A stretch of DNA of 64,000 nt from contig LFSH01000034.1 of the NCBI GenBank assembly GCA_001513105.1, positions 1-64,000 on the forward strand. The letters run 5' to 3'. The stretch is from Clostridiales bacterium DTU070 (lineage in GTDB: Bacteria; Bacillota; Clostridia; DSM-8532). Under the pieces are notes generated by a model. That model was not told the DNA's origin and searched no databases. It saw only the letters and a program-made list of their open reading frames with translations. Position 1 is the stretch's first letter; each line of letters opens with the position of its first letter. The position numbers were made by a program, and so were the translations under genes. Positions 15,005 to 33,755 of this stretch are shown here, one piece after another.

Positions 15005-18000
15005 CTAATCCGGTGTTGTATTGTCAACCTTTTCGAAATAAAGCTGGGGCAGCACTATTTTAACTTCGTTTTGATCTTCTCCCTTCCAGAAAACAATAAA
15101 CCTCACTTCTGCAGATTTGAGTGCATAGTTGCCGGCTTTAGCCGAGTTTATTTTTCCGATGCACTTTTTTGAGAATTTCAATATTACCTGCCCTTCCTGG
15201 TTCAGGCAATATTCATCCCTGACAATCAGCCTGTCGCCGCTGACCAGTTTTGATATCAGGTTCTGACGGCTACCGGGTTTGAAAAAGTCAAGAAAAACAT
15301 CTTCATGGGCAAGCTGCATCACCAGTTGCTCCGGCGGGGAATACAAATTTCTGTTATAAACCTTTTCAAGGTTTTCAGACCGTATGCGTTCCAAATAATA
15401 CCCGTTATAATGTATGGCCAGGTTTTTCTTTGCCCTCGTCATGGCAACATAAAGAAGCCTTTTTTCTTCATCGGTTTTAGGAACGAAATTGTCCAGCATA
15501 ATAAACACGTTGTCAAACTCACGGCCTTTTGCTTTATGCATTGTTGACACAAGTATCGTTTTGGTTTTTTCGTCATAGAAGTCTTCAAGGTTCGACTCCC
15601 GGACAAACTCCTCGAGGTCGGATTTGTATCTTGTCTTCGGATTCATTGATTCAAATATTCTTATAAGATTTTTACATATCTCGTAATTCCGGCTTCTTCC
15701 AAACTTCTTTGACAGTTTCAGCTTTGCCTCATCCCAGACATCTTCGCTGACCGTGCTGCTGTCCTTGTCTGCGTTTACTTCATCAAGGAAATACCTTATC
15801 TCTGAAAGATTGTACAGGTTAAACCCGTCATTTGACTGGATCAGCTTTGCTTTCATCCGGTTTCTCACAAGCAAACCTGCGATCTGCAATGCTTCTTCGT
15901 TTGTCCTGGTCAGCACGCAGGTGCTTCCCGCGATGTCCTGTGCAAGGATATCTTCAACCACGGGTGTAACGAGATTGGCGGAACTGTAGCGTACAAGCCT
16001 TATCCTGCCGTTATCGTTCTGCCTGGGCTGAATGGGAGTGCGTTTTAAGCGGTTCCTTATTTCAACTGAAAACTGGTTTGTAAAATGTACAAGATTACTT
16101 TTGCTCCTGAAGTTTTCAACCAACTCATACACCTTTGCACCTTTTTCATCAATCAGTTTTTGCATGTATTCCGAACTTGAGCCCCTGAACCCGTATATGT
16201 TCTGATCGTCATCCCCCACTGCTATCACGCGTATATCCTCGTTATATTCCATAAGGCATTTCACAAGCTCAAACTCATCTGCATCCATGTCCTGCGCTTC
16301 ATCTATAACCAGAACGGTTTTGGTTATTTTCGAAAGTTCAATTTCATTGCTTTTTATTTTCAGGATTGTCTCTTTTATGATGTTATCCGACTTTTCAATG
16401 GTTCCAACCCTGCCCAGCAGATCAAAGCAATAGGAATGAAATGTTTTTATGTCTATATAGTGCGCGGCATTTCCGTAAAGTCCCAGAAGCCTTTTTTTGA
16501 ATTCGGTGGCTGCCGATCTTGAGAATGTGAGCATCAGCAGCTGCTCGTGCTTCACATCTTCCATATATAAAAGCGATGCCAGTTTATGAACCAGGACACG
16601 GGTCTTTCCGCTTCCGGGACCGGCAGCAACCACAATATACCTGGATTCGATGTCATTTATTATGCTGAGCTGGGCCGGTGACAGCTCGCCGAAAAGCTGT
16701 CTGAACTTGGAAGGGGTAATCGTTCTTTTAATGGTCTGTATGTTCCCCCTGAAATATTTGCCTGAAAAAGAATCGTAGTTAAGCTGAAAATAGTCGTCTA
16801 CAAACTGAAGCGCAGCTTTATAGTCATTAATCATTTTTCTTGCGTATTCGCCCACAATATGAATCTGCTGCACCTTGTTTTCATAAAATTCCTGCAGTTT
16901 CCGATAGTCCGCGGTTTTAAAACGCTTCCTGTTATCCATTTCAATCCGTTCTATGCTCATGGTATTATAAATAACAAGAAAACCGCCTTCGACATATATT
17001 GATTCAATTCTTGACAGGTAAAAAAGGGCATCTTCTATATCACTAATTGAGGCTTTGGTGCCGAACATCGTAATCCTGCTATTAAAAGCCTCTTTTAACT
17101 GCACGACCGAAAAATCCACTCTGACCTCGCCCTTGGAATTAACTTCGGCCGGTGTTTCATAAGCTATGTTATAGAGATACTCCAGTATAAATTTTGAAAG
17201 CTCATAGCGTTTATATGATTTTTCTTTAAGGACCTTTTTTTCATGAATGCAGTATGCTGAAAAATGATTGGGCGGATAAGAATTACGCTTAATCCATTTG
17301 GTTATTGCCCAGAAATTTATAATGGTTTTCAGTTTATTTGGCGTTGCACCTTTACATCCGAATTCTCTGGCCTGCTCATTAAGCTCTTTTATGTTAAATG
17401 TTTTTGCTTCTTCAGTAAAAACCGTTAACAGGAACTCTTCCATATCATGGAATTCGTACAGAATATTCAGTGAATGCTTCACACTTTCACTTTTCTTTAT
17501 ATATACAGACATGTCCCTGGAATCATCCAGCAAACCTTCATCCCTAAGCAGGGTTACAATGCGTATTACAGTCGCTATATCAAGCCCGAGGCGATCGGCA
17601 ATATAGTCGATTCTCGATTCGGCTTCATCGGTACCGGCTTCGCTTCTTTTTCTTTTACCGATAAGCATGCCTATTATCCTCCTCGCATGCACCGACTCCT
17701 CCTTTGAGAATTTTCCCGAAGCATAAATCCTGTTTACCGCCTCTATAGCGTTTCTTGCCCGTATACTGCTGGCAAAAATTCTCGGAACATTACGGCCTCT
17801 TCTAACGTATCCGGCTTCTTCGAGGGCATTGATTGCTGTCTTTACTTTTGTCTCCAGATCATGGATGCTGTCATCCCATCCTGCTCTTCTTGCTATATCC
17901 AAAGCAGACCTGGACATTGTTTTCCTTATTCCCGTCAGGCTTTTTATGGCCTTCCAGACCTGCTGAATCTCCTGTATCTGCAGTTTTGTCTGGTTCAAGA

Positions 18001-19861
18001 GAACAAAATGCTTGTTAAGATCATCATCGTTATACAGTATATAACATTCCGCTGAAATGGATTCATCCCTTCCCGCCCTTCCTGCTTCCTGAACGTAGTT
18101 TTCCAGCGAGTTGGAAATATCATAGTGAATAACCATCCCGACATCCTTTTTGTCCACCCCCATCCCAAAGGCGGATGTTGCAACCATAATGCGGACTTCA
18201 CCTTTAGTGAATGCGTCCTGGTTTTCGGTTTTCACCTGTTTTTCGAGCTGCCCGTGGTATGCCCTTGCCCTGTACCCGTCCTTACACAGCCTGTCTGCCA
18301 GCTCTTCGGCGCGCTTTGTCCGCGATACATAAACAATTGTCGGACAATCCTTTTCTTCAATTAGATTTCTCAATGTAATATACTTCTCCTCGTCATCCTT
18401 TCTTTCGAGAACCCTGTAACTGAGATTGCTTCTTTTTGCATCGGTCCTGAATATTTCAAGTTCGAGGGACAGCTTATCCCTGAAATACTGTCTTATGTCT
18501 TCAATAACATTTGGCTTGGCCGTGGCTGTAAAACACGACACAGGAATCGGCTCTTCCGGGTTTTTCATTTCCTGAAGCATTTTTATAAAATCACCTATAT
18601 ATAAATAGTCAACCCTGAAATCCTGGCCCCATGTGGAAAAACAATGTGCCTCGTCTATTACGAACCTGACCACGTTCCTTCCGAGCAGAAGCCGTTCAAT
18701 TGTCCTCGAACGCAGTGATTCCGGTGATATATAAAGTATGGATGCCGAACCGTCCTCAACCCGTTCAATGGATTTTGCCCGTTCTATCGGATCCAGAAGG
18801 CCGTTGATCGTAACAGCATCGGTTATTCCGATTTTCTCAAGGTTATCAACCTGATCCTTCATCAGTGACTGCAGCGGTGATATTACCACGGTAAGGCCTT
18901 TTGAGTTTTCACCTGCCATCAGTGCAGGCAGCTGGAATGTAACAGATTTGCCGCCTCCAGTCGGGAAAACCACCAGCAGTGATTTATTGTTTACAGCGGC
19001 CCGGACAGCCATTTCCTGCAGCGGTTCGCCCGCATAAGTCCTGAATGAGTCAAAACCAAAAAATTTTTTCAGTCCCTTGTGAATGTCAATAGCTTCATTA
19101 CAATATGCACAGCCTGGTATACACCGGGTGTTTTTTAGAAGGCGCATAACCTGCTCAACATTGGAGTATGTTCTGACCACCCATGGAGGCGTGATTGAAT
19201 CCTTTCTTCCTGTTTTTATTAATGCAAGGCAATATGACAGTTCTATGGGATGTTCACGGATAAGTTTTCCGATATCGGCATTTTCACAGACTAAACCATG
19301 GAATCTTGTACGGATTAATGTTTCCAAATCATCGTTACCGATCTTATATCCTGTATAGGAAAAAAACGCTTTAAACTCCCTTTTGTCATTCAGCAGAAGG
19401 AAAAAAATCCGTTTCATGTCGTCATCCAGTCTCTTAAAGGCTGCAACCTCGTCATTTAAAAGGTCACGTGCCTTCATCGAATCATTAAGCGGATTATTAA
19501 ACTCATCGGTTATAAGTTTGTCATCCTTCAGAAGCGAATGGTAAGGCTTTACCGGAAACAAAAGAGGTGACAGGAACAGCGTGTCGATTACATATTCATT
19601 TGATATACCTGCGTCGGTAATGGCATTTTGTATATACTTCAGGTCATGGTTCAGTATATTGTGCCCGCATATGTACTCTGAACCGCGTATAAAGTCAATA
19701 AATTCCCTGATATAGGCTGAATGGAATTCAGCCCCGTTATCCCTGACAGCACCAATATCCAGGATTCTGTTGTTTATAGGATTAATCTCGGTATCAATGA
19801 AAGTAATCCGGTTCATTTTATTGCCTTCCAGGATTAAATATATTTCTCGTTTCAAAAGCAC
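15005..19861 (-). CDS. Fusion protein: DnaQ-like 3'-5' exonuclease + RecQ-family SF2 helicase + UvrD/Rep SF1 helicase (1618 aa)
   Basis: Exonuclease ITFIDTEINPINNRILDIGAV...CGHNILNHDLKYI; RecQ VFPTGGGKSVTFQLPAL...FVIDEAHCFSTWGQDFRVDY...MVIHYDISNSLENYVQEAGRAGRDE; UvrD VVAAGPGSGKTRVLVHKLASLL...LVIDEAQDMDADEFELV...VGDDDQNIYGFRGSS...STMHKAKGREFDNVFIM. Confidence 0.93.
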   Translation of the reverse strand: MLLKREIYLILEGNKMNRITFIDTEINPINNRILDIGAVRDNGAEFHSAYIREFIDFIRGSEYICGHNILNHDLKYIQNAITDAGISNEYVIDTLFLSPLLFPVKPYHSLLKDDKLITDEFNNPLNDSMKARDLLNDEVAAFKRLDDDMKRIFFLLLNDKREFKAFFSYTGYKIGNDDLETLIRTRFHGLVCENADIGKLIREHPIELSYCLALIKTGRKDSITPPWVVRTYSNVEQVMRLLKNTRCIPGCAYCNEAIDIHKGLKKFFGFDSFRTYAGEPLQEMAVRAAVNNKSLLVVFPTGGGKSVTFQLPALMAGENSKGLTVVISPLQSLMKDQVDNLEKIGITDAVTINGLLDPIERAKSIERVEDGSASILYISPESLRSRTIERLLLGRNVVRFVIDEAHCFSTWGQDFRVDYLYIGDFIKMLQEMKNPEEPIPVSCFTATAKPNVIEDIRQYFRDKLSLELEIFRTDAKRSNLSYRVLERKDDEEKYITLRNLIEEKDCPTIVYVSRTKRAEELADRLCKDGYRARAYHGQLEKQVKTENQDAFTKGEVRIMVATSAFGMGVDKKDVGMVIHYDISNSLENYVQEAGRAGRDESISAECYILYNDDDLNKHFVLLNQTKLQIQEIQQVWKAIKSLTGIRKTMSRSALDIARRAGWDDSIHDLETKVKTAINALEEAGYVRRGRNVPRIFASSIRARNAIEAVNRIYASGKFSKEESVHARRIIGMLIGKRKRSEAGTDEAESRIDYIADRLGLDIATVIRIVTLLRDEGLLDDSRDMSVYIKKSESVKHSLNILYEFHDMEEFLLTVFTEEAKTFNIKELNEQAREFGCKGATPNKLKTIINFWAITKWIKRNSYPPNHFSAYCIHEKKVLKEKSYKRYELSKFILEYLYNIAYETPAEVNSKGEVRVDFSVVQLKEAFNSRITMFGTKASISDIEDALFYLSRIESIYVEGGFLVIYNTMSIERIEMDNRKRFKTADYRKLQEFYENKVQQIHIVGEYARKMINDYKAALQFVDDYFQLNYDSFSGKYFRGNIQTIKRTITPSKFRQLFGELSPAQLSIINDIESRYIVVAAGPGSGKTRVLVHKLASLLYMEDVKHEQLLMLTFSRSAATEFKKRLLGLYGNAAHYIDIKTFHSYCFDLLGRVGTIEKSDNIIKETILKIKSNEIELSKITKTVLVIDEAQDMDADEFELVKCLMEYNEDIRVIAVGDDDQNIYGFRGSSSEYMQKLIDEKGAKVYELVENFRSKSNLVHFTNQFSVEIRNRLKRTPIQPRQNDNGRIRLVRYSSANLVTPVVEDILAQDIAGSTCVLTRTNEEALQIAGLLVRNRMKAKLIQSNDGFNLYNLSEIRYFLDEVNADKDSSTVSEDVWDEAKLKLSKKFGRSRNYEICKNLIRIFESMNPKTRYKSDLEEFVRESNLEDFYDEKTKTILVSTMHKAKGREFDNVFIMLDNFVPKTDEEKRLLYVAMTRAKKNLAIHYNGYYLERIRSENLEKVYNRNLYSPPEQLVMQLAHEDVFLDFFKPGSRQNLISKLVSGDRLIVRDEYCLNQEGQVILKFSKKCIGKINSAKAGNYALKSAEVRFIVFWKGEDQNEVKIVLPQLYFEKVDNTTPD

Positions 19862-20215
19862 ACCGGTACATACAGATCAGCGCAGAAATTTAATATGTGC
19901 AATAACAGGAAATACTTCCTTTAATATATAATCGGCAATCGCTGCTTTTTACCTGAACATGTTATTAAATACTTTGCCTGTATTTACCTGTACTTATATA
20001 TATTATACAATAACTGTGACATGCGGCAATATGAACACGGAGTTCAGGAATTGGATTTACGCGGATATGATGTTTGCATGGGAATTCCTCCATTCGTATT
20101 TTTCGGGCTCAGGTTTATCATAACCGCCTATATAACGAACGGAGGCTCCAAAGTGTTGATTAAAAATATCTCTTGTCGCGGAAATTTCGGATATGATAAT
20201 GTTCGGCGGCAATAC

Positions 20216-21022
20216 CTAAATGTTGTAATTTTCAATCCATGACCTTACAGGAATTTTATATTCCACAAGTTTATCCTTGATTTCCTTTACTGAGTAATTC
20301 CTGTCCATGCGCGGAGAATACAGCATTGAACTGATAATCGCAGCCGATGCACCTGTTTTTGTAAACACCTCTGCCACGTGTTCCGGTTTACCGGCACCTC
20401 CGGACGCAATCACAGGGATATTGACATTTCTACTGATTAACGACGTAATCTCTATATCGTACCCGGAATGGGTACCATCCTGATCAATGCTGTTCACACA
20501 TATTTCCCCTGCTCCGAGCTCTTCACCCTTCTTAGCCCATTCCACCGCATCAATACCGGTAAAAACCCTTGCCCCGTCAATAGCTATTTCATATCCGCTC
20601 GGAATCCGGAAAGTTTTTTCAACGCGTTTCACCTGCATGCTCAGAACTATACACTGTCGTCCGAAGGCCATTGCACCTTCACGTATAATCCCGGGATTGC
20701 GCACAGCCATTGAATCTATGCTGATTTTTTCAGCGCCGGCTTTCAATACTTCGTACATATCGTCAAGATTTCTGATACCGCCGCCTACAGTAAAAGGCAC
20801 AAAAACATGCTTTGCAACTTTCCTGACAGTTTCAAGGTCTATCTTTCGCTTTTCGAAACTTGCAGTAATATCATAGAATATAATCTCGTCTATCTGGTCT
20901 TCATATATCCTGCGGGCAACGTTTTCAGCAGTATCAATGTCTATGTTGTCCTGAAACTTATGTGCTTTCGTTACCATCCCGTTTTTTATATCAAAACAGG
21001 CAATCAATCTTTTTGTCAGCAT
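20216..21022 (-). CDS. HisF-like protein (imidazole glycerol phosphate synthase cyclase family), divergent orphan copy
   Basis: KRLIACFDIKNGMVTKA, EIIFYDITAS, VPFTVGGGIR, SIDQDGTHSGYD, PVIASGGAGKPEH. Confidence 0.85.
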   Translation of the reverse strand: MLTKRLIACFDIKNGMVTKAHKFQDNIDIDTAENVARRIYEDQIDEIIFYDITASFEKRKIDLETVRKVAKHVFVPFTVGGGIRNLDDMYEVLKAGAEKISIDSMAVRNPGIIREGAMAFGRQCIVLSMQVKRVEKTFRIPSGYEIAIDGARVFTGIDAVEWAKKGEELGAGEICVNSIDQDGTHSGYDIEITSLISRNVNIPVIASGGAGKPEHVAEVFTKTGASAAIISSMLYSPRMDRNYSVKEIKDKLVEYKIPVRSWIENYNI

Positions 21023-21696
21023 AATACACCCTCTGCAATCATTGAGAAATTTTTCAGAAGCCTTAATCCCATCACACCGCTTTTTTCAATGTGAAACTGG
21101 GCTCCGAATATGTTTTTATACGATATCATTGAACAGAAATCCACGCCGTACTGTGTTCGCGCCAGTACAACCTCCTCATTCGCCGACGTGACATAATATG
21201 AATTAACAAAATAAAAAAACTCCGACTCATTCAGGCCTGAAATAACAGCGTGATTTCTTATAAACTTCACTTCATTCCAACCTATTTGCGGTACGCGTAC
21301 CTTATCCTCCGGAAATCTCCTTACATTCCCGGGAATCCATCCCAGGCATTCGGTATCTCCTTCCTCGCTGTGATCAAAGAGTATCTGCAGACCTATGCAG
21401 ATTCCCAGGAAGGGTACGCCGTCGTTCAGAACTTTTTCCTCAAGTACATCCAAGAAGCCCATTTTCCTGAGTGAATCCATGGTTGCCCCGGCTGAGCCCA
21501 CACCGGGCAGTATAATACCTTTTACCGTACTTATATCCCGAGGAGAAGATATCAACTCCGACGGGACATTCAATTTATGCAACGCATTCAAAACACTGGG
21601 AGCATTTCCGGCTTTATAGTCAATTACACCAATCATAAACACAGACCTTTCGCATGAAGAATTCACTGGATTAAGAAATAAAACCATACGCAGCAT
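21016..21696 (-). CDS. HisH-like class I glutamine amidotransferase; start likely MIGVIDYKAGN (about 21639)
   Basis: GIILPGVGSAGATM, PFLGICIGLQILFDHSEEG (nucleophile Cys), GAQFHIEKSG (His/Glu); overlaps the HisF-like ORF by 7 nt. Confidence 0.85.
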   Translation of the reverse strand: MLRMVLFLNPVNSSCERSVFMIGVIDYKAGNAPSVLNALHKLNVPSELISSPRDISTVKGIILPGVGSAGATMDSLRKMGFLDVLEEKVLNDGVPFLGICIGLQILFDHSEEGDTECLGWIPGNVRRFPEDKVRVPQIGWNEVKFIRNHAVISGLNESEFFYFVNSYYVTSANEEVVLARTQYGVDFCSMISYKNIFGAQFHIEKSGVMGLRLLKNFSMIAEGVLC

Positions 21697-21759
21697 TCAC
21701 TGCTCCAGGGTATATATCATATTTTATATATTAAGTTTTTTGTCCTTGTCAATAATTCA

Positions 21760-22671
21760 CTATCCTGTTTTTTTGAATTTTGTATATTTAATGTACAGCC
21801 TTTCCCTGTCAGGCCATTTTGCTTTATCATGCGGAAGTATAATCTTTTTATGCTGAAGTTCCTGGATTCCATGTTTAAGCATGGGTCCATCCTTTTCTTC
21901 CAGTATGTCCTCTCTGACTTCTATGATATAATCTGGAGTAACTCCTATAATATTGGCATCAAATGCCGCATGATGTATTTTACACAGGGATATTCCGTTA
22001 TTTACAACGGGATCACCTAATTCCTCACCATCCGGTATGATATGCGCAGCATCCAGGAGCTGAATATGCCTTATCCTGCAGAATGCACATTGCTGTGAAT
22101 ATGCCAGAAGTACTCTCTCCCTGAACGATTTCTGGTGCAGTCTCTGCCTGACCGATGAGGTTATGTATCTGCGTACTGCAATCTCCGAATTGCTGGAAAT
22201 GTTATACCCTTGCGATCTGAATAAATGGTTTTCTATTGTTGATATGTCGTCTGCTGCTATTGTAAAAGTCAAAGATGAGGGATTGTCTCCTATAATGTAA
22301 ACAGGCCAGACAGCCAGGTACTTACCCGGGACAATACCGTAAAAATATATCAATGGTATCTGTTTTTCCATGGCTTCCCGTAAACCTTTATTATCCCTGT
22401 GTTCAGGATCGGTACCCCTGTAACGGTACTGAAGAAACCCGCCGCTGTCTATCGCGTCGTCATATGGTCCGTCGTACACAGTTGTAACCGACAGCGGTAC
22501 TGATAAAGCCTTTGGCTTCCATATACCCTGCGGTCCCAAAAGGGTTATCCTCTGTCCGTCATATTCAAAACCTCTTGCCAGGAGTTCCCTGGGCAACACA
22601 TCCCCGTACAGCATCGTCTGCTCTTTAAGCCAGTTAAATGCCGCCAGCCTTATTCTTTTTTGCTCTTCCAT
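21760..22671 (-). CDS. HNH endonuclease, candidate modification-dependent restriction-type nuclease
   Basis: C-terminal HNH: CAFCRIRHIQLLDAAHIIPDGEELGDPVVNNGISLCKIHHAAFDANIIGV; N-terminal conserved module GPQGIWKPKALSVPLSVTTVYDGPYDDAI...YRYRGTDPEHRDNKGLREAMEKQIPLIYFYGIVPGKYLAVWPVYI. Confidence 0.82.
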   Translation of the reverse strand: MEEQKRIRLAAFNWLKEQTMLYGDVLPRELLARGFEYDGQRITLLGPQGIWKPKALSVPLSVTTVYDGPYDDAIDSGGFLQYRYRGTDPEHRDNKGLREAMEKQIPLIYFYGIVPGKYLAVWPVYIIGDNPSSLTFTIAADDISTIENHLFRSQGYNISSNSEIAVRRYITSSVRQRLHQKSFRERVLLAYSQQCAFCRIRHIQLLDAAHIIPDGEELGDPVVNNGISLCKIHHAAFDANIIGVTPDYIIEVREDILEEKDGPMLKHGIQELQHKKIILPHDKAKWPDRERLYIKYTKFKKTG

Positions 22672-22839
22672 GGGACAACCTCACAAAACTTTTATAAAAT
22701 CTTGTGATGTATTGGGCAATCAGGTGTTCTGATATTAACGGTCGGTTGTATTATAACATCTGTCGTCGGTATTGCGTCTTCTCAAACATAAAACCAGGAT
22801 TAACCGTAAAATAGGACATGTTTTTCCTGCGATATATGG

Positions 22840-22917
22840 TATAATATTATTGCAAAATATTTATTTTTGCTGTAATGAAAACTCCCCCCCTAATCATTTT
22901 CATTACAGCACTTTTTT
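22840..22917 (+). ncRNA. Candidate short hairpin RNA (extended -10 promoter, 13-bp stem, C7 loop, T6 tail)
   Basis: TGgTATAAT (TATAAT 22840-22845), GCTGTAATGAAAA (22869-22881) / TTTTCATTACAGC (22897-22909), loop ctccccccctaatca, then ACTTTTTTG. Confidence 0.35.
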
Positions 22918-22928
22918 GTTTGCGGTAT

Positions 22929-23924
22929 TTATTTTTTACTGTATTTTTGCCTCATCCGCTCAACTTCCCAGGTGACTTCAAACTTCAATGAGTCCGGTTC
23001 CAGGACCTCGGCATCTGCGCCGAATTTTAACACCCACTGCAGTATGTCCGGGGTATAGGTTGTTTTCTTTTCAAAAAGAATCTTATCCCCGTCAAGGTTT
23101 GTAATTTTATCAGCCCTGTATGCCTCGTATTCCTTTACATACCGTGCGCCCTGTCCCTCAAAAACTATCTTCATGGTTATTTCCTCATCACCGATCATCT
23201 TTTCAAAGCGGTTTTTGTTATACTCCTCATAAAAGTTTTCAGGGCGTTTAAAAGTTTCATTCAGTATTTCAACGTTTTTCATGCGTGATACGCGAAAATC
23301 CCGGATTTCCTTACGGAGATGGCAATAGCAGATCAAATGGTAACAGCCTTCCCTGATCTCGAGGTAATACGGATCTATTTTGCGGTTCGTCATTTCATTG
23401 TTGTTAAACGAAAAGTATTCTATCCTAAGCCTGCGGTTCTTTTCTATTGCTTCCCGTATGGTCCTGAGGTAGCTTTCGTTAATGCATTTTTCAAGCACTG
23501 CTTCGGAAGGGTTGACCTTCAGAAAATCAGAGAGGGAATCTATATAGCTCTGGTTAACAGGCGGAACATTTTTGAGCATGTTCTCAAGCATGTCCTGTGC
23601 GGTTTTCCCTACATCCAGCACCGAATAGGGTTTCAGGATCTCTTTCAGAAAATATATGGAAATAAGTTCAGGCACAGTAAATGCAACATTGCCTATGTTG
23701 TACTTGTCGGCCTTGTAACATATTTCTCCGGCCTCGTTTTTTTCCTCATACACAAAAAAGTGTCGCGAAATATCGTCAATATCACGCTGAATGGTTTTTT
23801 TGCTTACATCAATTCCAAGTTTTTTCATGTTGTCATGAATCTCATTAACTGTAAACCCTTCCTTGCTCTCGGAAAGGACAGAAAGTATATGCATCTGTCT
23901 TTCAATCTGCTTTATGTCCGACAT
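22929..23924 (-). CDS. WYL-domain transcriptional regulator with N-terminal HTH
   Basis: N-terminal HTH (ILSVLSESKEGFTVNEIHDNMKKLGIDVSKKTIQRDIDDI); WYL-type core LRIEYFSFNN...DPYYLEIREGCYHLICYCHLRKEIRDFRVSRM. Confidence 0.9.
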   Translation of the reverse strand: MSDIKQIERQMHILSVLSESKEGFTVNEIHDNMKKLGIDVSKKTIQRDIDDISRHFFVYEEKNEAGEICYKADKYNIGNVAFTVPELISIYFLKEILKPYSVLDVGKTAQDMLENMLKNVPPVNQSYIDSLSDFLKVNPSEAVLEKCINESYLRTIREAIEKNRRLRIEYFSFNNNEMTNRKIDPYYLEIREGCYHLICYCHLRKEIRDFRVSRMKNVEILNETFKRPENFYEEYNKNRFEKMIGDEEITMKIVFEGQGARYVKEYEAYRADKITNLDGDKILFEKKTTYTPDILQWVLKFGADAEVLEPDSLKFEVTWEVERMRQKYSKK

Positions 23925-24124
23925 ATTTTACCACCCACGAACTATATCGGAACATACCCGAAATAGATTAAGAATACGTTTTTTGTATTATGCTTAAAAA
24001 GGGCTTTTTGAATAAAAAGTATAAAAATGCCGGTTTTTCATGCATCTTTCTAACAATTCCGGGTATTTGCACGCCGATCATAAAAAACCGAAAGCAATAC
24101 AGGATAAGCAACTAAAAATAGGAT

Positions 24125-27100
24125 TCACTCATTTACGGTAACCGAACCCGCCCCTGTGAAATACAGTTCTCCCGCTGCCTTTTCCTTCATTATTTTCTCC
24201 CATACCCGGCAGTAAATCCTAATCTGTTTTGAATAATGTTTTACCAGCAGTTTCAAATCTTCTTCGGTTTCAAAATGGTTTGTTTTGTAGTCAATTATCC
24301 TCCAGCCGTCTTCATCCTTCAGCACCAGGTCTATCTTCCCCTGCAGGGTGACGGGCAGTTTGCTTTCAACATTCAGCTCCTCCAGGATCTGATCTCCATT
24401 CTCAAGTGTTATGGAAAAAGGAACCTCGGTAAGTTTTATCCCGGCATTCCGGATTCTTGCATAAAGCCCGCTTTCTTTGAACTCCGTAATTATTTCCTCC
24501 GCCTTTTCACTGTACATGGGCTCGGTAAAACCATACTGCTCCAGTATCATTTTCTTATAATTCTCAAAGCTTGTTTCGTCCTTTACCAGCCTTTCAATCA
24601 TTTCATGAACGGCACTTCCCCATTCAGGGCCAAGACCGCCTTTGACGGTATGGAGCGGTTCCTCGCTGATTATATCCGATACCGATAATTCCATATACGT
24701 AGGCTGTTCAGCAGATGCAATAAACTCTTTTATGCTGTTTTTGAAATCCTCAAGATCCTCCTTTTTTATCCGCACAGGTGTCTCAGGCTGGCGCGGTTCA
24801 GGAATTTGGACCTCTGGTATCTTATAAACATATTCTTCCTTGTTTGTAAAATCGAGTAACGGCTCCCACGGGTTCCTTTTGTCCGAATATTCACTGCAGG
24901 ATATAAACAACAGGTTCCTGGCCCTGGTCGCAGCAACATATAAAAGCCTGATTTCCTCGGCGTTCTGATACTTTTCTTCCGTTGCTTTCAGGCTGTCCCA
25001 GTTCAAAGGCTGGCCCACCGTTCTTGTCGTGAATTCGCCCATTTCCTTTTTTATTACGAAATATCCCATGGGACTTGATTCAGTTCTGCTAATATGGTGA
25101 TCGGGTTCAATATCCGGCCTTTTGCACGGGTGGGCAAGGAAAACAACTGGGGCTTCGAGGCCTTTTGCCTTGTGAAGATTCATGATTCTTACGGCATTTT
25201 GTTCTTCCCCGCTTATTTCAAGCTCTTCATCCAAATCGGCATCCATTATCGCATCAAGCCAGTCAATCATTGCATCAAAACTGATATAACCTTCAGCGGC
25301 ATCACGCCTTAACATTTCAAGGATTTTTATTATGTAACCACACCGGGTTTGACCTTCCGGCCCGACAAAGGTTAAAGGGATAAGGCCGATATCCTGCGCT
25401 GTTTTCTCAAAGGCGGTTACGGGAGGATATTTCCGCGACCATCTGAGATACATTGAGAGCTTTTCATAGGCATTTTTAAACAAGGCCCTCGTTTCTTCAG
25501 GCAAATCACCCGGTATTTCGGCATAGGTCCTGAACACTCCTCCCGAAAGTTTATACTCAGCCAGTGCCTTATCGCTTATGCCGAAGAACATACCCCTGAG
25601 CACAGCAACAAGAAGGACCTGGTTCTCAGGGTCCTTAAGGAACTTAAGAAGTATTATGAACTCTTTCAGTTCCTCCACGTCCGACAGTGAACTGCCTCCT
25701 GACATCTGCACGGGTATACCGTATTTTTTAAGCGTTCTTGCGTAGACGTCCATACTGTCTTTATAGCGAAGAATTATCATAAAATCCCTGTACGCTGGTT
25801 TTTCTGCCAGGCCTTTTGCTGTTTCCCCACCGGTCCTGGTAAGTTTTATGCCTTCATTGTCCACCGCATTACGGATTATCCGCGCAATATTCTCTGCATC
25901 CTGTTCTATGATCTCCTGCTTCTTCCTGAATTCTGCAGGTACCTTTACAACCCTTACGCCTGAATCGGTGCCTTCGATATTGTCATTCACAGTATTTACT
26001 GGGCTGAATGCAGCCTGGTATGAATCCGACTCCGGCGTCAGCAGGTTCTCAAAGGCTTCGTTGAACCAATCGCCCAGCGTGTTCACCGAGCGGAAATTCG
26101 CGGTTAATTCAGCAATTTCCCCGCCTGTCTGCAGAAACAGTTCCTTTACCCGGTTGTAAATATCAATATCTGCTCTCCTGAACCTGTAGATGGACTGTTT
26201 CGGGTCCCCGACAACAAAAAGCGACCCCGGATAAGGCACGAGCTTATCCCATTGCTTCTCATACACATCCTGCCCTGTTAAAAGAAACATCAGCTCTGCC
26301 TGTATCGGATCGGTATCCTGGAACTCGTCAATCAACAGGCACCGGTACTTTTTTTGGAAATAAAGCCGGACCTCGGGATGCTCCCTCAGCATTTGCACCG
26401 CTTTCATCAGAAGATCCTGGAAGTTAAGCACCGATTGCTGATTTTTTACGTACTCATAATACTCTACAGCCGGCATTAAAAAGTTCATTGCAATGTAATG
26501 GCAGTATTCCCTCCATTGTTTCAGAACAGGCCTTATTTCAGTCTGGGACAGGTGGTTTATCTCACCTGCGATTTCTTTTGTTTTTTCCTTTTCGCAAAGC
26601 CACCTGTTTAGAACTACCTTCTGTTCGGGCTCAAACATTTCAAGTATGGTCAGCCTGTTTATGTCATCGTCCATGTTAAAATAGCTGAGCATGCGGATAC
26701 TTGTCAGTATCCTGTGCTGAAGGTAGTCGTATCCCTTTTCAGGTTCTGTTGAGGGTATATAGTTTTTAGCTTTATACAGGTGCGGTTTCAGCTTTTTCAG
26801 GGCGGGTGCCAGGTCAGGTTTTTCGGTACGGTTTCGTACGATCTCCACATCGGGATACCCGGTTATGAGATTGTAGATATTCTCAAGATCCACAGGTTTC
26901 AGGCCGATATCGTTCAGTTCTTTCAGCCTTTCGGGATAGTCTTTTCGTGTATCCAGAAGGTATTGCTGCCAGGCCTGCTTGTGCAGCAGTACGTCATTTG
27001 CATCATCTATCTCTTCAAAATCCGGATCCACCAGGCCTTCAACAGGCCTTTCCCGGAGCAGTGATGCGCAAAATGAATGGATCGTGCCTATGAAACACTT

Positions 27101-27400
27101 CTCAATATTATTAAGTGCCTCTTTCAAAGTGTTTTTAAGCCCGGGATCGGTTTCCTCCCGGTAACACTCTTCGAGCTTGTTCTGAAAACGCTCCTTAAGT
27201 TCGCGCGCTGCTTTTCTTGTAAATGTAATGGCCGCTATATTCTCCACTTTGCATTTGCCCGAAGCTACCAGGCTTACCATGCGGCTTACCATGCTTGTAG
27301 TCTTTCCCGAGCCTGCGCCCGCCTCTACAAGCATGTTCACATTCAGTTCATTCCTGATCCGTTCGCGAACATTGTTATCCGGAACAGTATTGTTATTCAT
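24125..27400 (-). CDS. AddA-like UvrD-family helicase with C-terminal PD-(D/E)XK nuclease
   Basis: VEAGAGSGKTTSMVSRMV, CLLIDEFQDTDPIQAELM, MNLHKAKGLEAPVVFL; C-terminal LQGKIDLVLKDEDGWRIIDYKTN. Confidence 0.92.
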   Translation of the reverse strand: MNNNTVPDNNVRERIRNELNVNMLVEAGAGSGKTTSMVSRMVSLVASGKCKVENIAAITFTRKAARELKERFQNKLEECYREETDPGLKNTLKEALNNIEKCFIGTIHSFCASLLRERPVEGLVDPDFEEIDDANDVLLHKQAWQQYLLDTRKDYPERLKELNDIGLKPVDLENIYNLITGYPDVEIVRNRTEKPDLAPALKKLKPHLYKAKNYIPSTEPEKGYDYLQHRILTSIRMLSYFNMDDDINRLTILEMFEPEQKVVLNRWLCEKEKTKEIAGEINHLSQTEIRPVLKQWREYCHYIAMNFLMPAVEYYEYVKNQQSVLNFQDLLMKAVQMLREHPEVRLYFQKKYRCLLIDEFQDTDPIQAELMFLLTGQDVYEKQWDKLVPYPGSLFVVGDPKQSIYRFRRADIDIYNRVKELFLQTGGEIAELTANFRSVNTLGDWFNEAFENLLTPESDSYQAAFSPVNTVNDNIEGTDSGVRVVKVPAEFRKKQEIIEQDAENIARIIRNAVDNEGIKLTRTGGETAKGLAEKPAYRDFMIILRYKDSMDVYARTLKKYGIPVQMSGGSSLSDVEELKEFIILLKFLKDPENQVLLVAVLRGMFFGISDKALAEYKLSGGVFRTYAEIPGDLPEETRALFKNAYEKLSMYLRWSRKYPPVTAFEKTAQDIGLIPLTFVGPEGQTRCGYIIKILEMLRRDAAEGYISFDAMIDWLDAIMDADLDEELEISGEEQNAVRIMNLHKAKGLEAPVVFLAHPCKRPDIEPDHHISRTESSPMGYFVIKKEMGEFTTRTVGQPLNWDSLKATEEKYQNAEEIRLLYVAATRARNLLFISCSEYSDKRNPWEPLLDFTNKEEYVYKIPEVQIPEPRQPETPVRIKKEDLEDFKNSIKEFIASAEQPTYMELSVSDIISEEPLHTVKGGLGPEWGSAVHEMIERLVKDETSFENYKKMILEQYGFTEPMYSEKAEEIITEFKESGLYARIRNAGIKLTEVPFSITLENGDQILEELNVESKLPVTLQGKIDLVLKDEDGWRIIDYKTNHFETEEDLKLLVKHYSKQIRIYCRVWEKIMKEKAAGELYFTGAGSVTVNE

Positions 27401-30383
27401 AATCAGAAAGCCCCCTTAACGCTGCAAGAGCTTCAACATTCTTGTCGTTTCGCTTTTCTTCTGCCACTGAAGGAAGCCTGTGAATGCGGCAAACCACCTG
27501 GTAATCACACCACCGGCAGTCACCAGGGTCTTCGGTTACTGCGAACGTCCCCTCCTCTATAACAGTGAGAAGGTTGTCAAGCAGCCTGAAGAATTTTGAC
27601 AAGTCCTTCAGTACCCGTATAAAGCGCCTTCCTTCACCTTTTTTAGTTGGAAAAAGGTATACCCCTTCCTTTACCTTTGCATTTTGGGCATCCCTGTATT
27701 TTTTAAGTAAAACCTCGCATGCGTATGCGTACAGGGCATGCTGAATCTGCTTGCCTTTTTTGAAGAAATCCCTGTCGCTGAAACCATAAGTTCCACCGGA
27801 TTTATAGTCAATTATTCTGTAATTGTTCCCGTCCACCTGATCAATGCGGTCAATTTTCCCTGCCAACAGGAATTTTCGTCCAGAAGGAAGAGTAATTTCT
27901 ACCGGTGGATATCCTTCACCGTCCATTCCAAAAGCAAGTTCAAACTCAACGGGTCTTCCACCGTCGGCGTTTTCCTCCTCTCCTGCAAGGAAAATCAGGC
28001 AGGACTCCAAGATCTCTCGCCTTTCAATATCAAATACAATCTCGTTTGGCGGCGGGACTTGCTTTTTATACTCCCGGATTACATCCTCGGCAATTTGAAG
28101 TATAACGGCACTGTGGCCTTCCCTGCTTGGTTTTTCCTGTTTTTCGGTTATCGTTTTATAAAACAGTTCGAAAACAGCATGATACAACGAACCTTTCTGC
28201 AGGGGATCAAGCCATGTTCCGGGATCGTAAACCAGTTCATCGGGCAGCGATACATTAAGTATATAGCGCAGGTAATACTTATACGGGCATTTCGCCAGAA
28301 GCTCCAGCCTGCTTGCCGAGAATACCTCGCCATCGGTTTTAATTCCCAGGTTCCCTATATATCCGTCATAGCAGGTAAACCTGGTACTGCCCTGGTTATC
28401 CCATGCATTCCATCCTCTTTCAAGGTGCGGATAACATTCAAAAACAGACTCCCTGATGCTCCCCGCGAAAACCGTGTTAAAGCATCTGCTGAGCCAAAAA
28501 GAGGATTCATCTATGGCATTTCCGTTAATATAGCCCTCGGATTTTGCAAAATAGTCTCTTAAATCCGAATAATCCGCAAGGCTGTTATTACTAATCATCC
28601 TGTAGACCTGGAGAATGAATGAGGACGGCATTTGATCCCTGTTTTCAGCAGGATCAAGGCATGAATATGACAATGTTATATTTCCGTTCAGGCCTGCCAG
28701 CAGCTCAACAAGCCTGTATATGCTTTCATTCGGTTTTTCCCTGTTCTGAACAATTCTATCCGACAGTCTCTGTTTTTCGGCATCAAGCAGAACAGGGTCT
28801 TCACCCGTTTTACCCGGGAACCTGTCTGCATCAAGGCCTATGAAATAATGATGCCGCCTGTTTATATAAACACCGTTGTCAAAGTCGGAAAGGTGGATAT
28901 GACCACTGCAGGGATTTGATACTCCAATACGGAGGCCCCGGACAAAACTGTCAAGTATACGCAGTGCTTCACCGGTGTCAATGAATAAGTCTATCGAAAC
29001 CCGGTTAAGGGTCTCGACTATCATCTTTTTGGCTTCTGCGTCAAGTTCACTTTTTACCTCGGCAAACCCATTGACAAAAGAAGCTATCCCTTTCGCAAGC
29101 TCTTTCAATGAAACCCTTTGGCCCTGCGAAGAGGGAATCATGTTCAGAACGGTCTCAGTAAATTTTCTCACAGAGCCCAGTATCTTCAATCTTTTCAGTT
29201 TGTAATCGTCGTCAGGGCTTTCTTTCTGTAATGCTTCCAGTTTTTCATCAAGAACCGGAAGATAACGTTCCCTGCCCCAGCCAATACCCGATGCCCTTAA
29301 GACATTTGCAGCCTGGTACGGGCTTATCGTATCGCCGTTTTCCGACGGAACCCGGATTAGCTCCTGGTGCAGCATTTTAGTCAGGTCAGACACCAGGTAG
29401 TCCGAGCCAATCCACCTGATTACAGCATCAAAAACCTTTCCGGGTCCCGAGTTCTGAATGCTTATGCCGTAACTGAAAGTAACAGGTATCCCGAGCTGCA
29501 TTGCCTTCTGGTATAACAGCTGCGCATATGGTTCCCTTGTCGCAGCGTAGATGCATACGTTGTCAAAGGGTATTCCTTTTGTTTTTATATCGCGTAATAC
29601 CGCTTCTGTTTCGTTGCTTTCACCATAAGCCTTTTTTAAATGTATTCCGCTTATATCGGCGTCTTCGCCTGTTTCACCCGGAGCATACAAACAGGCAAAC
29701 GGGGATTTAGGAAGTTTTTTCTCCGGATAATCTGGACAGTAATACGAAGCCGGAGGATCGATGCCGTTTATCGGTTCATCATAGAGTATTCGTACCGAAC
29801 TGAATTTTTCGGAAATTAATTTCTTTTCAAGATAACGCAGCTTAATACTGTTTGGAACAAGCAAAAGCGCATCTTCCTTGCTGTCGGCCTTGAGAATCCT
29901 TTGGATCAGCCCTGGATAGTCTGTCAGCCCTTCATTTTCCAGCATCAAATCGTATTCCCTTATAATTCTTTTAATATCCCGCCCTTTTTCCGGGCATACA
30001 AAGCTGTCCTCGCTGATGTCATCTGTGTTTAAGCCTGCATATTTTATCTCCATGACCGCATTCCACACCGAGTCTGAAACCGACGGAGTGACCCGGATGG
30101 CGGTGAAGTATTCAAATTCATTGTTCTGCTGCAGGTTATATATAACTGCGAACATTTTCTGCCTCGACAAACCGTCATTGGCAAGGGTTTCGCTGCCGGC
30201 TGCCAGAAGCGGCATACCCAGCTCATACGCAATGCTTTGAATTGTTTCGATTCTCAGATTCAATACAGAAGTTCTCCCCGCAAGAGCCGCAATGATATTA
30301 CGCCCTGCCGTGTACGAAGGAACAAGTAGTATTTTGTTGAGCAACAGGTTTTCCCTGCATATGTCTGCTAAAGTCTCTATCAT
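27393..30383 (-). CDS. AddB-like PD-(D/E)XK nuclease family protein
   Basis: ECPYKYYLRYIL-type motif (LAKCPYKYYLRYIL), LAGKIDRIDQVDGNNYRIIDYKSG, terminal Cys cluster DCRWCDYQVVCRIH; overlaps the AddA-like start by 8 nt. Confidence 0.9.
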   Translation of the reverse strand: MIETLADICRENLLLNKILLVPSYTAGRNIIAALAGRTSVLNLRIETIQSIAYELGMPLLAAGSETLANDGLSRQKMFAVIYNLQQNNEFEYFTAIRVTPSVSDSVWNAVMEIKYAGLNTDDISEDSFVCPEKGRDIKRIIREYDLMLENEGLTDYPGLIQRILKADSKEDALLLVPNSIKLRYLEKKLISEKFSSVRILYDEPINGIDPPASYYCPDYPEKKLPKSPFACLYAPGETGEDADISGIHLKKAYGESNETEAVLRDIKTKGIPFDNVCIYAATREPYAQLLYQKAMQLGIPVTFSYGISIQNSGPGKVFDAVIRWIGSDYLVSDLTKMLHQELIRVPSENGDTISPYQAANVLRASGIGWGRERYLPVLDEKLEALQKESPDDDYKLKRLKILGSVRKFTETVLNMIPSSQGQRVSLKELAKGIASFVNGFAEVKSELDAEAKKMIVETLNRVSIDLFIDTGEALRILDSFVRGLRIGVSNPCSGHIHLSDFDNGVYINRRHHYFIGLDADRFPGKTGEDPVLLDAEKQRLSDRIVQNREKPNESIYRLVELLAGLNGNITLSYSCLDPAENRDQMPSSFILQVYRMISNNSLADYSDLRDYFAKSEGYINGNAIDESSFWLSRCFNTVFAGSIRESVFECYPHLERGWNAWDNQGSTRFTCYDGYIGNLGIKTDGEVFSASRLELLAKCPYKYYLRYILNVSLPDELVYDPGTWLDPLQKGSLYHAVFELFYKTITEKQEKPSREGHSAVILQIAEDVIREYKKQVPPPNEIVFDIERREILESCLIFLAGEEENADGGRPVEFELAFGMDGEGYPPVEITLPSGRKFLLAGKIDRIDQVDGNNYRIIDYKSGGTYGFSDRDFFKKGKQIQHALYAYACEVLLKKYRDAQNAKVKEGVYLFPTKKGEGRRFIRVLKDLSKFFRLLDNLLTVIEEGTFAVTEDPGDCRWCDYQVVCRIHRLPSVAEEKRNDKNVEALAALRGLSDYE

Positions 30384-31933: not shown

Positions 31934-33331
31934 CTACAGGTTGCCTGCCAGGCTGTTCACCTCCACATTCCTCATACTGAGCGGCACATATTCTCTTGGC
32001 GGTGCAATACTCCTGTATGCAGGCCTGATTATTTTGCCCCTGTTCACCAGTTCTTCTATCCTGTGGGCGCTCCAGCCCACAATCCTTGACACGGCGAACA
32101 GTGGTGTAAACAGTTCTTCCGGTATATTTAACGCTTTATAGACAAAGCCTGAATAGAAATCCACGTTAATGCTGACACCTTTGTATATCTTTCTTTTTTC
32201 GGCAATTACCTCCGGGGCCAGCCGCTCAACTTTTTCATACAGACTGAACTCAGCTTCAAAGCCTTTCTCCTTTGCAAGCGCCCTTGCATATTCCTTGAAT
32301 ATCTCGGCTCTTGGATCGGATATCGAATAGACCGCATGGCCTACGCCATAGATTAAGCCGCTTCTGTCAAAGGTTTCTCCGTCCAGCAGCTTATTGAGAT
32401 AGTCCCGTACCTGTCCTTCATCCTCCCAGTCTTTAATGTTCTGTTTCATATCGTCGAACATTTGAGCCACCTTAACATTTGCGCCTCCATGCCTCGGCCC
32501 TTTCAGGGAACAAAGAGACGATGCTATTGTGGAATAGGTGTCGGTTCCGGTTGAAGTAATGACATGGGTGGCAAAAGTGGAGTTGTTTCCTCCGCCGTGC
32601 TCGGCATGCAAAACCAGGGCCAAATCCAGTAAAACAGCTTCAAGATGGGTGAATTTCGAGTCGGGCCTTAGAAGATGAAGGATGTTTTCGGCCGTGGAAT
32701 ACCTGCGTTTCGGGGCATGTATGACAAGGCTTCTGTTCTTGTAATAATGCGCCAGCACCTGGTACCCATAGACGGCCAGCAGAGGGATCTGTGCAATCAG
32801 CTTAAGGCACTGCCTGATAACATTGCTGATCGATATGTCGTCTGCCTGCTCATCATAAGTGTATAGTGCAAGCACGCTTCTTGACAGAAGGTTCATTACA
32901 TCCCTGCTCGGAAGTTTCATTATGGCGTCCTCGACAAAGGATAACGGCAGTTTTCTGTATTCCGACAGCAAAGCCCTAAACTCGTTTAACTCGTTTATGT
33001 CAGGCAGTTCTCCAAACAAAAGCAAATATGTTACTTCCTCAAAGCCAAACCTGCCTTCGGACATGAACCCGTTTACTATGTCCTTAATATCCATTCCCCT
33101 GTAAATCAGTTTTCCCGGAGCAGGAACAGTCTCACCCTTTTCATTGGTATAGGATGCGACAACGTCGCCAATCTCGGTAAGCCCTGCCAGAACTCCTTTT
33201 CCGGTAATATCCCTTAATCCTCTTTTTACATCGTACTTTTTATACAATTCGGGATCAATTTTATTGCGTTTCTCCGCCATTAATGTGTATTCTTCTATAA
33301 GTGCGTCCTTTCTTTTTCTGATTACTTCCAT
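31934..33331 (-). CDS. Citrate synthase (citrate/2-methylcitrate synthase family); start placed at MEVIRKRKD behind AGGAGG
   Basis: LVLHAEHGGGNNSTF, SLKGPRHGGANVKV, GLIYGVGHAVYSISDPRAEI, NVDFYSGFVYKALNIP, SRIVGWSAHRIEE. Confidence 0.95.
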   Translation of the reverse strand: MEVIRKRKDALIEEYTLMAEKRNKIDPELYKKYDVKRGLRDITGKGVLAGLTEIGDVVASYTNEKGETVPAPGKLIYRGMDIKDIVNGFMSEGRFGFEEVTYLLLFGELPDINELNEFRALLSEYRKLPLSFVEDAIMKLPSRDVMNLLSRSVLALYTYDEQADDISISNVIRQCLKLIAQIPLLAVYGYQVLAHYYKNRSLVIHAPKRRYSTAENILHLLRPDSKFTHLEAVLLDLALVLHAEHGGGNNSTFATHVITSTGTDTYSTIASSLCSLKGPRHGGANVKVAQMFDDMKQNIKDWEDEGQVRDYLNKLLDGETFDRSGLIYGVGHAVYSISDPRAEIFKEYARALAKEKGFEAEFSLYEKVERLAPEVIAEKRKIYKGVSINVDFYSGFVYKALNIPEELFTPLFAVSRIVGWSAHRIEELVNRGKIIRPAYRSIAPPREYVPLSMRNVEVNSLAGNL

Positions 33332-33402
33332 TGTACACCTCCTGAGAATAAAATAAACTAATATCAATATTTGTAATATTATCCAGATATTATTGAATAG
33401 TG

Positions 33403-33432
33403 TTAAAAAAACCATGGAGTATATCCATGGTT
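33403..33432 (-). terminator. Rho-independent (riboswitch expression-platform) terminator in the citrate synthase leader
   Basis: Minus strand AACCATGGA-TATAC-TCCATGGTT followed by TTTTT, between the riboswitch and the start codon. Confidence 0.85.
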
Positions 33433-33435
33433 ATA

Positions 33436-33560
33436 TGCTATACCCCTCTTTCACGGCCTACGAGGTTAGCTGCCGGGCTCGGACTGAAAGAGTTATCCTA
33501 TCCTGAAAAGGAATTCGCCCCCGAAATGGTTCCCCCGCTCCACTAATGTGAATTAAGCCT
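33436..33560 (-). promoter_or_regulatory. c-di-AMP (ydaO/yuaA) riboswitch aptamer upstream of citrate synthase
   Basis: Minus strand: GCTTAATTCACATTAGTGGAGCGGGGGAACCATTTCGGGGGCGAATTCC...AGGATAACTCTTTCAGTCCGAGCCCGGCAGCTAACCTCGTAGGCCGTGAAAGAGG; matches recalled ydaO conserved blocks (GGGGAACC, GGGGNGAAUC, AGUCCGA-CCCG-CAGCUAACCUCGUAGGC). Confidence 0.88.
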
Positions 33561-33755
33561 ATATGATTTTTAAGAACCAATTGATTTTTGACTTATTTAA
33601 TTTTACAATATGCCGTTTCATTTGTCAAACAAAAATTACCGCATGGATCATCCTGTAAACTAACAGTTTACGCATTTCCGGCCTTCGGGCGGCCATAGTT
33701 CTGCCAGGGAACACTAAAGAATTTCCCGGAATGACCTCTGAACATCAACCAGGGT

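Follow-up and report, generated by a model that had tools for sequence, protein, structure and literature searches.

Gene content of the locus

The window, by which we mean the whole 64,000-nucleotide stretch analysed here, lies on contig C72 of the 2.89 Mb genome of Clostridiales bacterium DTU070 (G000) and contains a run of seven genes encoding helicases, nucleases, a HisH-HisF-like pair and a regulator (Table 1). The original prediction had described this run as six consecutive minus-strand loci, and while the strand and the coordinates are borne out, the number of genes is seven rather than six. The domains assigned to them at that stage (nucleases, helicases, HisH/HisF-like, HNH and WYL) proved correct, with scores far above chance: Pfam-type searches matched DEAD/Helicase_C, UvrD and UvrD_C in the fusion protein, HNH_2 in the HNH protein, WYL and WCX in the regulator, UvrD and PDDEXK_1 in AddA2, PDDEXK_1 in AddB2 (1e-38) and His_biosynth in HisF2 (3e-66). 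The exonuclease placed at the N-terminus of the fusion retrieved no Pfam match and is backed by DEDD-type motifs.

Table 1. Features of the island and its flank (positions in the window)
Feature	Coordinates	Strand	Remarks
DnaQ-like exonuclease + RecQ + UvrD fusion, 1618 aa	15005..19861	minus	
Gap between hisF2 and the RecQ fusion, 354 bp	19862-20215	minus	no ORF of note
HisF2, TIM-barrel HisF paralogue, 268 aa	20216..21022	minus	
HisH2 glutaminase, 226 aa	21016..21696	minus	Cys, His and Glu present; likely start Met21
Stand-alone HNH endonuclease, 303 aa	21760..22671	minus	C-terminal HNH
HTH-WYL-WCX regulator (wyl), 331 aa	22929..23924	minus	3' of addA2
AddA2, 1091 aa	24125..27400	minus	SF1 helicase + PD-(D/E)XK nuclease
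AddB2, 996 aa	27393..30383	minus	AddB-like nuclease/scaffold
Citrate synthase gene	31934-33415		
c-di-AMP (ydaO/yuaA) riboswitch	33439-33569	minus	94 bits

Upstream, the seven genes are flanked by a MATE/ANKH-like transporter gene and citrate synthase, and on the other side by an ABC transporter set, a histidine kinase, DUF434 and groEL. The addA2 and addB2 ORFs overlap by 8 bp, and long gaps and separate promoters set apart the four cassettes described below. No sign of recent foreign composition was seen in the island genes, whose GC and GC3 are unremarkable.

Between hisF2 and the RecQ fusion, one reading frame opens with about 50 stop-free residues, which may be a gene remnant. In the flank, the riboswitch lies directly upstream of the citrate synthase gene, an arrangement shared by the four genomes of the genus (relatives' loci L022, L023 and L024), and this placement suggests that citrate synthase could be under c-di-AMP control.

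The island as a mosaic of four cassettes

We surveyed 61 related genomes, together with 222 genera in a wider survey of the class, for the genes of the island and their neighbours. That the entire block is a single co-evolved defence or DNA-processing system, as had originally been proposed, would fit with all of its genes lying on the same strand in one genome, with the HNH gene adjoining wyl, and with an HNH gene standing beside an AddAB-like pair in Bradyrhizobium elkanii. The relatives speak against it. HNH orthologues were found in G006, G008, G021, G059, G183 and G389, HisF2 orthologues in G013, G183, G397, G241, G064, G260 and G113, and the RecQ-UvrD fusion in about 10 of the 61 genomes, with some copies decaying with stop codons; these sets of genomes differ and are mostly non-overlapping. 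Where two cassettes occur in one genome (G002, G008, G013 and G183) they are located on different contigs, and in no other genome examined are two cassettes adjacent. In addition, HisH2-HisF2 orthologues go with GlnN, GOGAT, PurB and PurC or with an ECF transporter, in Clostridia the fusion lies beside no defence genes, and the neighbours of AddAB2 there are housekeeping genes, e.g., for spore-germination proteins, sugar transporters and citrate synthase. Because the cassettes are patchy and unlinked in relatives, the island is not one system but a mosaic of four unrelated cassettes; the long intergenic gaps and separate promoters agree with this, and we hold the single-system reading, largely refuted by the unlinked distribution, to be very improbable.

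The exception to this lack of linkage is the AddB-AddA-WYL trio. AddB2 occurs in each of the four genomes of the genus, in two of the three genomes of the sister genus (g6) and in one distant genome among the 61, and its family was found in only 2 of the 222 genera of the class. The wyl gene follows addA2 in G000, G002, G008 and G013 (80-87% identity), but no wyl gene adjoins addA2 in G001, G003 and G050, so the WYL protein is not obligatory. Across the order to which G050 belongs, a search yielded no genome other than G050. The named contigs that carry close relatives come from anaerobic-digester-type Clostridiaceae and Clostridiales MAGs, and no relatives of AddB2 or the HNH protein were found in viral contigs.

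Within the genus, the spot bounded by groEL/DUF434 on one side and citrate synthase/aminotransferase on the other is itself variable, holding sugar transporter and two-component genes in G001, radical-SAM, peptidase and phosphodiesterase-like genes beside a RecQ fusion in G002, and a beta-galactosidase-like gene in G003. The reading that we consider probable is that this variable chromosomal spot would have gathered four independent cassettes (addB2-addA2-wyl, the HNH gene, hisH2-hisF2 and the DnaQ-RecQ-UvrD fusion), the first of which would encode a WYL-regulated, Chi-blind complex of the AddAB type. PADLOC names no system here, in line with the earlier remark that no named system fits.

The HisH2-HisF2 cassette

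Against the IGP synthase family (HisH-HisF), HisH2 scores 217 bits with TIGR01855, well above the cut-off of 105. HisF2 has the HisF fold and keeps Asp11, but it differs from IGP synthase in forming its own clade, in scoring below the cut-off (285.9 bits vs 294.55) and in carrying Gln in place of Asp130, a replacement found in all eight orthologues. Orthologues of the pair share 65-88% identity across several families. Their neighbours, as established partly by reading the sequences by eye, are type III glutamine synthetase, GOGAT, PurB, PurC and argininosuccinate synthase, or, in another setting, an ECF transporter and a uridine-kinase-like gene. These nitrogen and purine neighbours rule out a DNA-modification pair, and the cassette is metabolic rather than one for DNA processing.

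HisH2 is the only HisH in the host genome, the his genes elsewhere (contigs C4 and C25) being without hisH; the hisC-hisB-hisA cluster on C25 has none between hisB and hisA. The view that the pair merely duplicates a complete his set was revised accordingly. From these sequence comparisons, the pair may provide the missing glutaminase supply or may serve a new amidotransfer role. Among the other members of the genus, HisH is absent from G002 and G003 and occurs once in G001, where it lies beside a second HisF. It seems that two members of the genus have acquired HisH-HisF pairs that differ from one another. In G013 (L059:854-2647), genes for an ECF transporter S component and a uridine-kinase-like protein come after HisH2-HisF2, and a gene for a DeoR-like regulator lies at the opposite end; this locus perhaps represents a salvage pathway with an unusual HisF.

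The DnaQ-RecQ-UvrD fusion cassette

All motifs of the fusion are intact, those of the exonuclease being D23-x-E, H67-N-x3-H-D and N-D-S at 126, and its true start is probably about 15 codons inside the called ORF. Full-length homologues are carried by plasmids of Bacteroides finegoldii and Phocaeicola (about 50% identity) and Aliarcobacter (35%), and others at 28-30% were found in Nostoc, Sulfitobacter, Croceicoccus and Paracoccus. The homologues lie close to plasmid partition genes or have no constant partners. Phage records matched the RecQ core only. With the RecQ-family defence helicases DpdF and PsyrT, too, the fusion has only the RecQ core in common (224 bits vs the cut-off of 550 for DpdF NF041063); it differs from both in its DnaQ-like exonuclease and UvrD parts, and no dpd or psyrA partner was seen among the window proteins scanned. 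By its sequence relatives, the fusion behaves as a mobile orphan helicase.

The HNH cassette

The HNH protein carries the motifs CAFC, DAAHI and N..SLCKIHH..FD in its C-terminal part and has a conserved N-terminal domain with no Pfam match. Its C-terminal HNH part matches that of phosphorothioate-DNA-binding, McrA-like HNH enzymes (NF045808), but the protein falls well under their cut-off (65.8 bits vs 180, over residues 158-290 only) and, unlike in those enzymes, its N-terminal region has no match to the sulphur-binding reader domain. The predicted structure is of low confidence (pLDDT 31).

Beside its orthologues, PADLOC models matched BrxL (G006), a type IV restriction helicase (G008), HerA with SIR2 (G183) and a type IV-like helicase (G389). 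Plasmid homologues share 32-39% identity; that of Allochromatium adjoins type I restriction genes, and that of Methylibium lies 6 kb from a phosphorothioation-associated gene. From these neighbours the HNH gene looks defence-associated, and our best guess is that the protein would be a modification- or foreign-DNA-dependent nuclease. The link to defence in the original prediction thus holds for this gene, and for the distant plasmid AddAB-like pairs described below, which also occur among defence genes, but not for the whole block as one unit.

A second AddAB-like pair

Whether the genome has a separate canonical addAB had been raised as a check, and one is present on contig C6 (AddA 1261 bits vs a cut-off of 707), which rules out AddAB2 as the host's only recombinase. 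AddA2 and AddB2 score far below the AddAB equivalog thresholds, at 312.6 bits for TIGR02785 (cut-off 707.65) and 89.2 bits for TIGR02773 (cut-off 903.7), respectively. AddAB of the B. subtilis type (PDB 3U44/3U4Q) is nonetheless the best solved match to the pair, sharing with it the two-gene addB-addA order, the motor and nuclease of AddA, and an AddB nuclease with Fe-S cysteines. The SF1A motor and nuclease motifs of AddA2 are intact (AGAGSGKT 27, DEFQD 358, GKIDLV 1021 and DYKT 1037), as is the PD-(D/E)XK nuclease of AddB2 (GKIDR 842 and DYKS 859), which also retains the Fe-S cysteines C699/C956/C959/C965. AddAB2 is thus supported as a second, accessory AddAB-like pair. For Gabija, GajB models matched only via the common SF1 domain, and no GajA model matched among the ten window proteins scanned.

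Where the pair departs from AddAB, besides its scores and its coexistence with a canonical copy, is in AddB2. The N-terminal P-loop is absent from every AddB2 and from all 13 plasmid relatives, whereas the canonical AddB of two genus members has the P-loop GRAGCGKT and that of G046 a variant loop. In B. subtilis AddB, the substitutions F68A and F210A reduce Chi recognition (PMC4824097). The equivalents in the host's canonical AddB are F67 and F204; in a profile alignment (20% identity, E 8e-26), F67 falls opposite Ile48 of AddB2, and AddB2 therefore lacks Phe68. Around F210 the alignment with AddB2 is poor, with no equivalent Phe seen, and as a result it is the F68 position that firmly carries the loss of the Chi pocket. 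The predicted structure of AddB2 is of low confidence (pLDDT 42).

The linked WYL regulator

The WYL protein has the HTH, WYL and WCX layout of PafBC, DriD and BrxR and keeps the arginines of the FR-x-x-R motif, a pair that PafB requires to bind ssDNA (PMC11804915). PafBC and DriD are WYL regulators that control DNA-damage responses, and by analogy the protein encoded here probably senses single-stranded nucleic acid. Upstream of wyl, a conserved CCGATATAGT looks like the gene's own -10 region. No inverted-repeat operator common to the upstream regions of addB2 and wyl was found, the repeats upstream of addB2 being unrelated. No inverted repeat was found upstream of wyl either, and in contrast to PafBC, DriD and BrxR the ligand and operator are putative here; BrxR homologues can do without an inverted-repeat operator. 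We infer that the protein probably controls addB2-addA2.

Proposed role of AddAB2 and its plasmid relatives

Canonical AddAB/RecBCD both breaks down linear DNA of foreign origin and repairs that of the host, which Chi marks as self. Our best reading of the AddAB2 sequences is that of a Chi-blind accessory helicase-nuclease with the WYL protein as its probable regulator. AddB2 and AddA2 would form an AddAB-type complex on DNA ends, with AddA2 giving a 3'-5' SF1A motor and one nuclease, and AddB2 giving a second, Fe-S-stabilised nuclease on a helicase-like scaffold without an ATP loop and Chi pocket. With that pocket lost, the complex should go on degrading linear DNA at Chi sites instead of changing over to recombination there. 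The WYL protein would regulate the cassette, yielding an inducible second exonuclease alongside canonical AddAB, and a role against foreign DNA is plausible.

A plainer possibility is that AddAB2 is a double-strand-break repair paralogue with a lineage-specific housekeeping function in sporulation, germination or heat-damage repair. Its presence on the chromosome beside citrate synthase throughout the genus looks like vertical retention, spore-germination genes lie next to it in the sister genus, and the damage responses governed by PafBC and DriD would suit such a role. We nevertheless consider it unlikely, given the canonical AddAB already in the genome, the lost Chi-pocket Phe and P-loop, the rarity of the family in the class and a nearest outside relative that is plasmid-borne.

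That relative was found in a search of 72,556 plasmids, where the closest full-length match to AddA2 is encoded by pSR116 of Salinibacter ruber (29.8% over 91%, E 3e-109; next-best match E 1e-44). In a phylogenetic tree, AddA2 and the Salinibacter AddA form one clade with 100/100 support, apart from canonical AddA and from the other plasmid pairs. The Salinibacter AddB partner is without the Fe-S cysteines, and 3.3 kb upstream at this locus there is a WYL gene in the same direction. More distant P-loop-less AddAB-like pairs of a PD-(D/E)XK nuclease and a UvrD helicase are carried by plasmids of Cyanobacteria, Pseudomonadota, Campylobacterota, Thermodesulfobacteriota, Deinococcota and haloarchaea; these resemble AddAB2 in the P-loop-less AddB partner, the kept nuclease and the gene order, but all except Salinibacter pSR116 fall in other clades, and several are without the Fe-S cysteines.

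Known or candidate defence or conflict genes lie near 9 of the 13 independent plasmid loci. These are BREX-1 with WYL (Mesorhizobium), a CBASS-type nucleotidyltransferase, E1-E2 and JAB directly upstream of the pair on the same strand (Desulfosarcina ovata, L129:1-9439), AbiE (Aminobacter), two GmrSD/DUF262 genes (Aliarcobacter cibarius pACIB, L101:6942-15611), AIPR and toxin-antitoxin genes (Picosynechococcus), HNH, HipA and a methyltransferase (B. elkanii), the candidate PDC-M05A (B. japonicum) and, as weaker cases, a type II-like methyltransferase (Halalkalicoccus) and a TIR protein (Methylorubrum). The Deinococcus, Bosea and Halosimplex pairs have no clear defence gene nearby, and Salinibacter has WYL only. 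Among four stretches taken as controls from the same plasmids, one contained a conflict-type gene (a Fic/Phd-type pair). With the sample and control small and plasmids rich in such genes, we regard this association as suggestive.

The association favours AddAB2, with or without WYL and HNH, being an anti-phage or anti-plasmid module that degrades linear foreign DNA escaping canonical AddAB, e.g., when the host enzyme is blocked by a phage, entering at HNH cuts or phage ends. Some functional link between AddAB2 and the HNH protein would be in keeping with the 258 bp between the HNH gene and wyl and with the B. elkanii HNH gene lying about 1.2 kb from the AddAB-like pair. The plasmid pairs are, however, distant relatives, no defence gene adjoins AddAB2 in Clostridia except HNH in one genome, and no PADLOC system matches; we see a dedicated module of this kind as a possibility to be entertained rather than favoured. 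PADLOC 2.0.0 has no model for AddAB-like pairs, and the open literature searched yielded no account of either these pairs or the DnaQ-RecQ-UvrD fusion. More speculatively, and with doubt on our part, the P-loop-less accessory pairs could together be an unnamed, Chi-blind module spread by plasmids in bacteria and archaea against linear foreign DNA, with the clostridial-Salinibacter branch under nucleic-acid-sensing WYL control.

The part of the island worth following is accordingly the P-loop-less, probably Chi-blind AddAB variant with its linked WYL regulator. If a Chi-blind copy does work alongside normal AddAB, it would offer a natural test of a separate, regulated enzyme devoted to destruction only, and the recurrence of AddAB-like pairs beside BREX, CBASS-type, AbiE and GmrSD genes makes this idea directly testable. 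In Aliarcobacter cibarius pACIB, the two GmrSD/DUF262 genes lie between the AddB-like and AddA-like genes, inside the operon, which may represent a combined restriction and end-degradation system.
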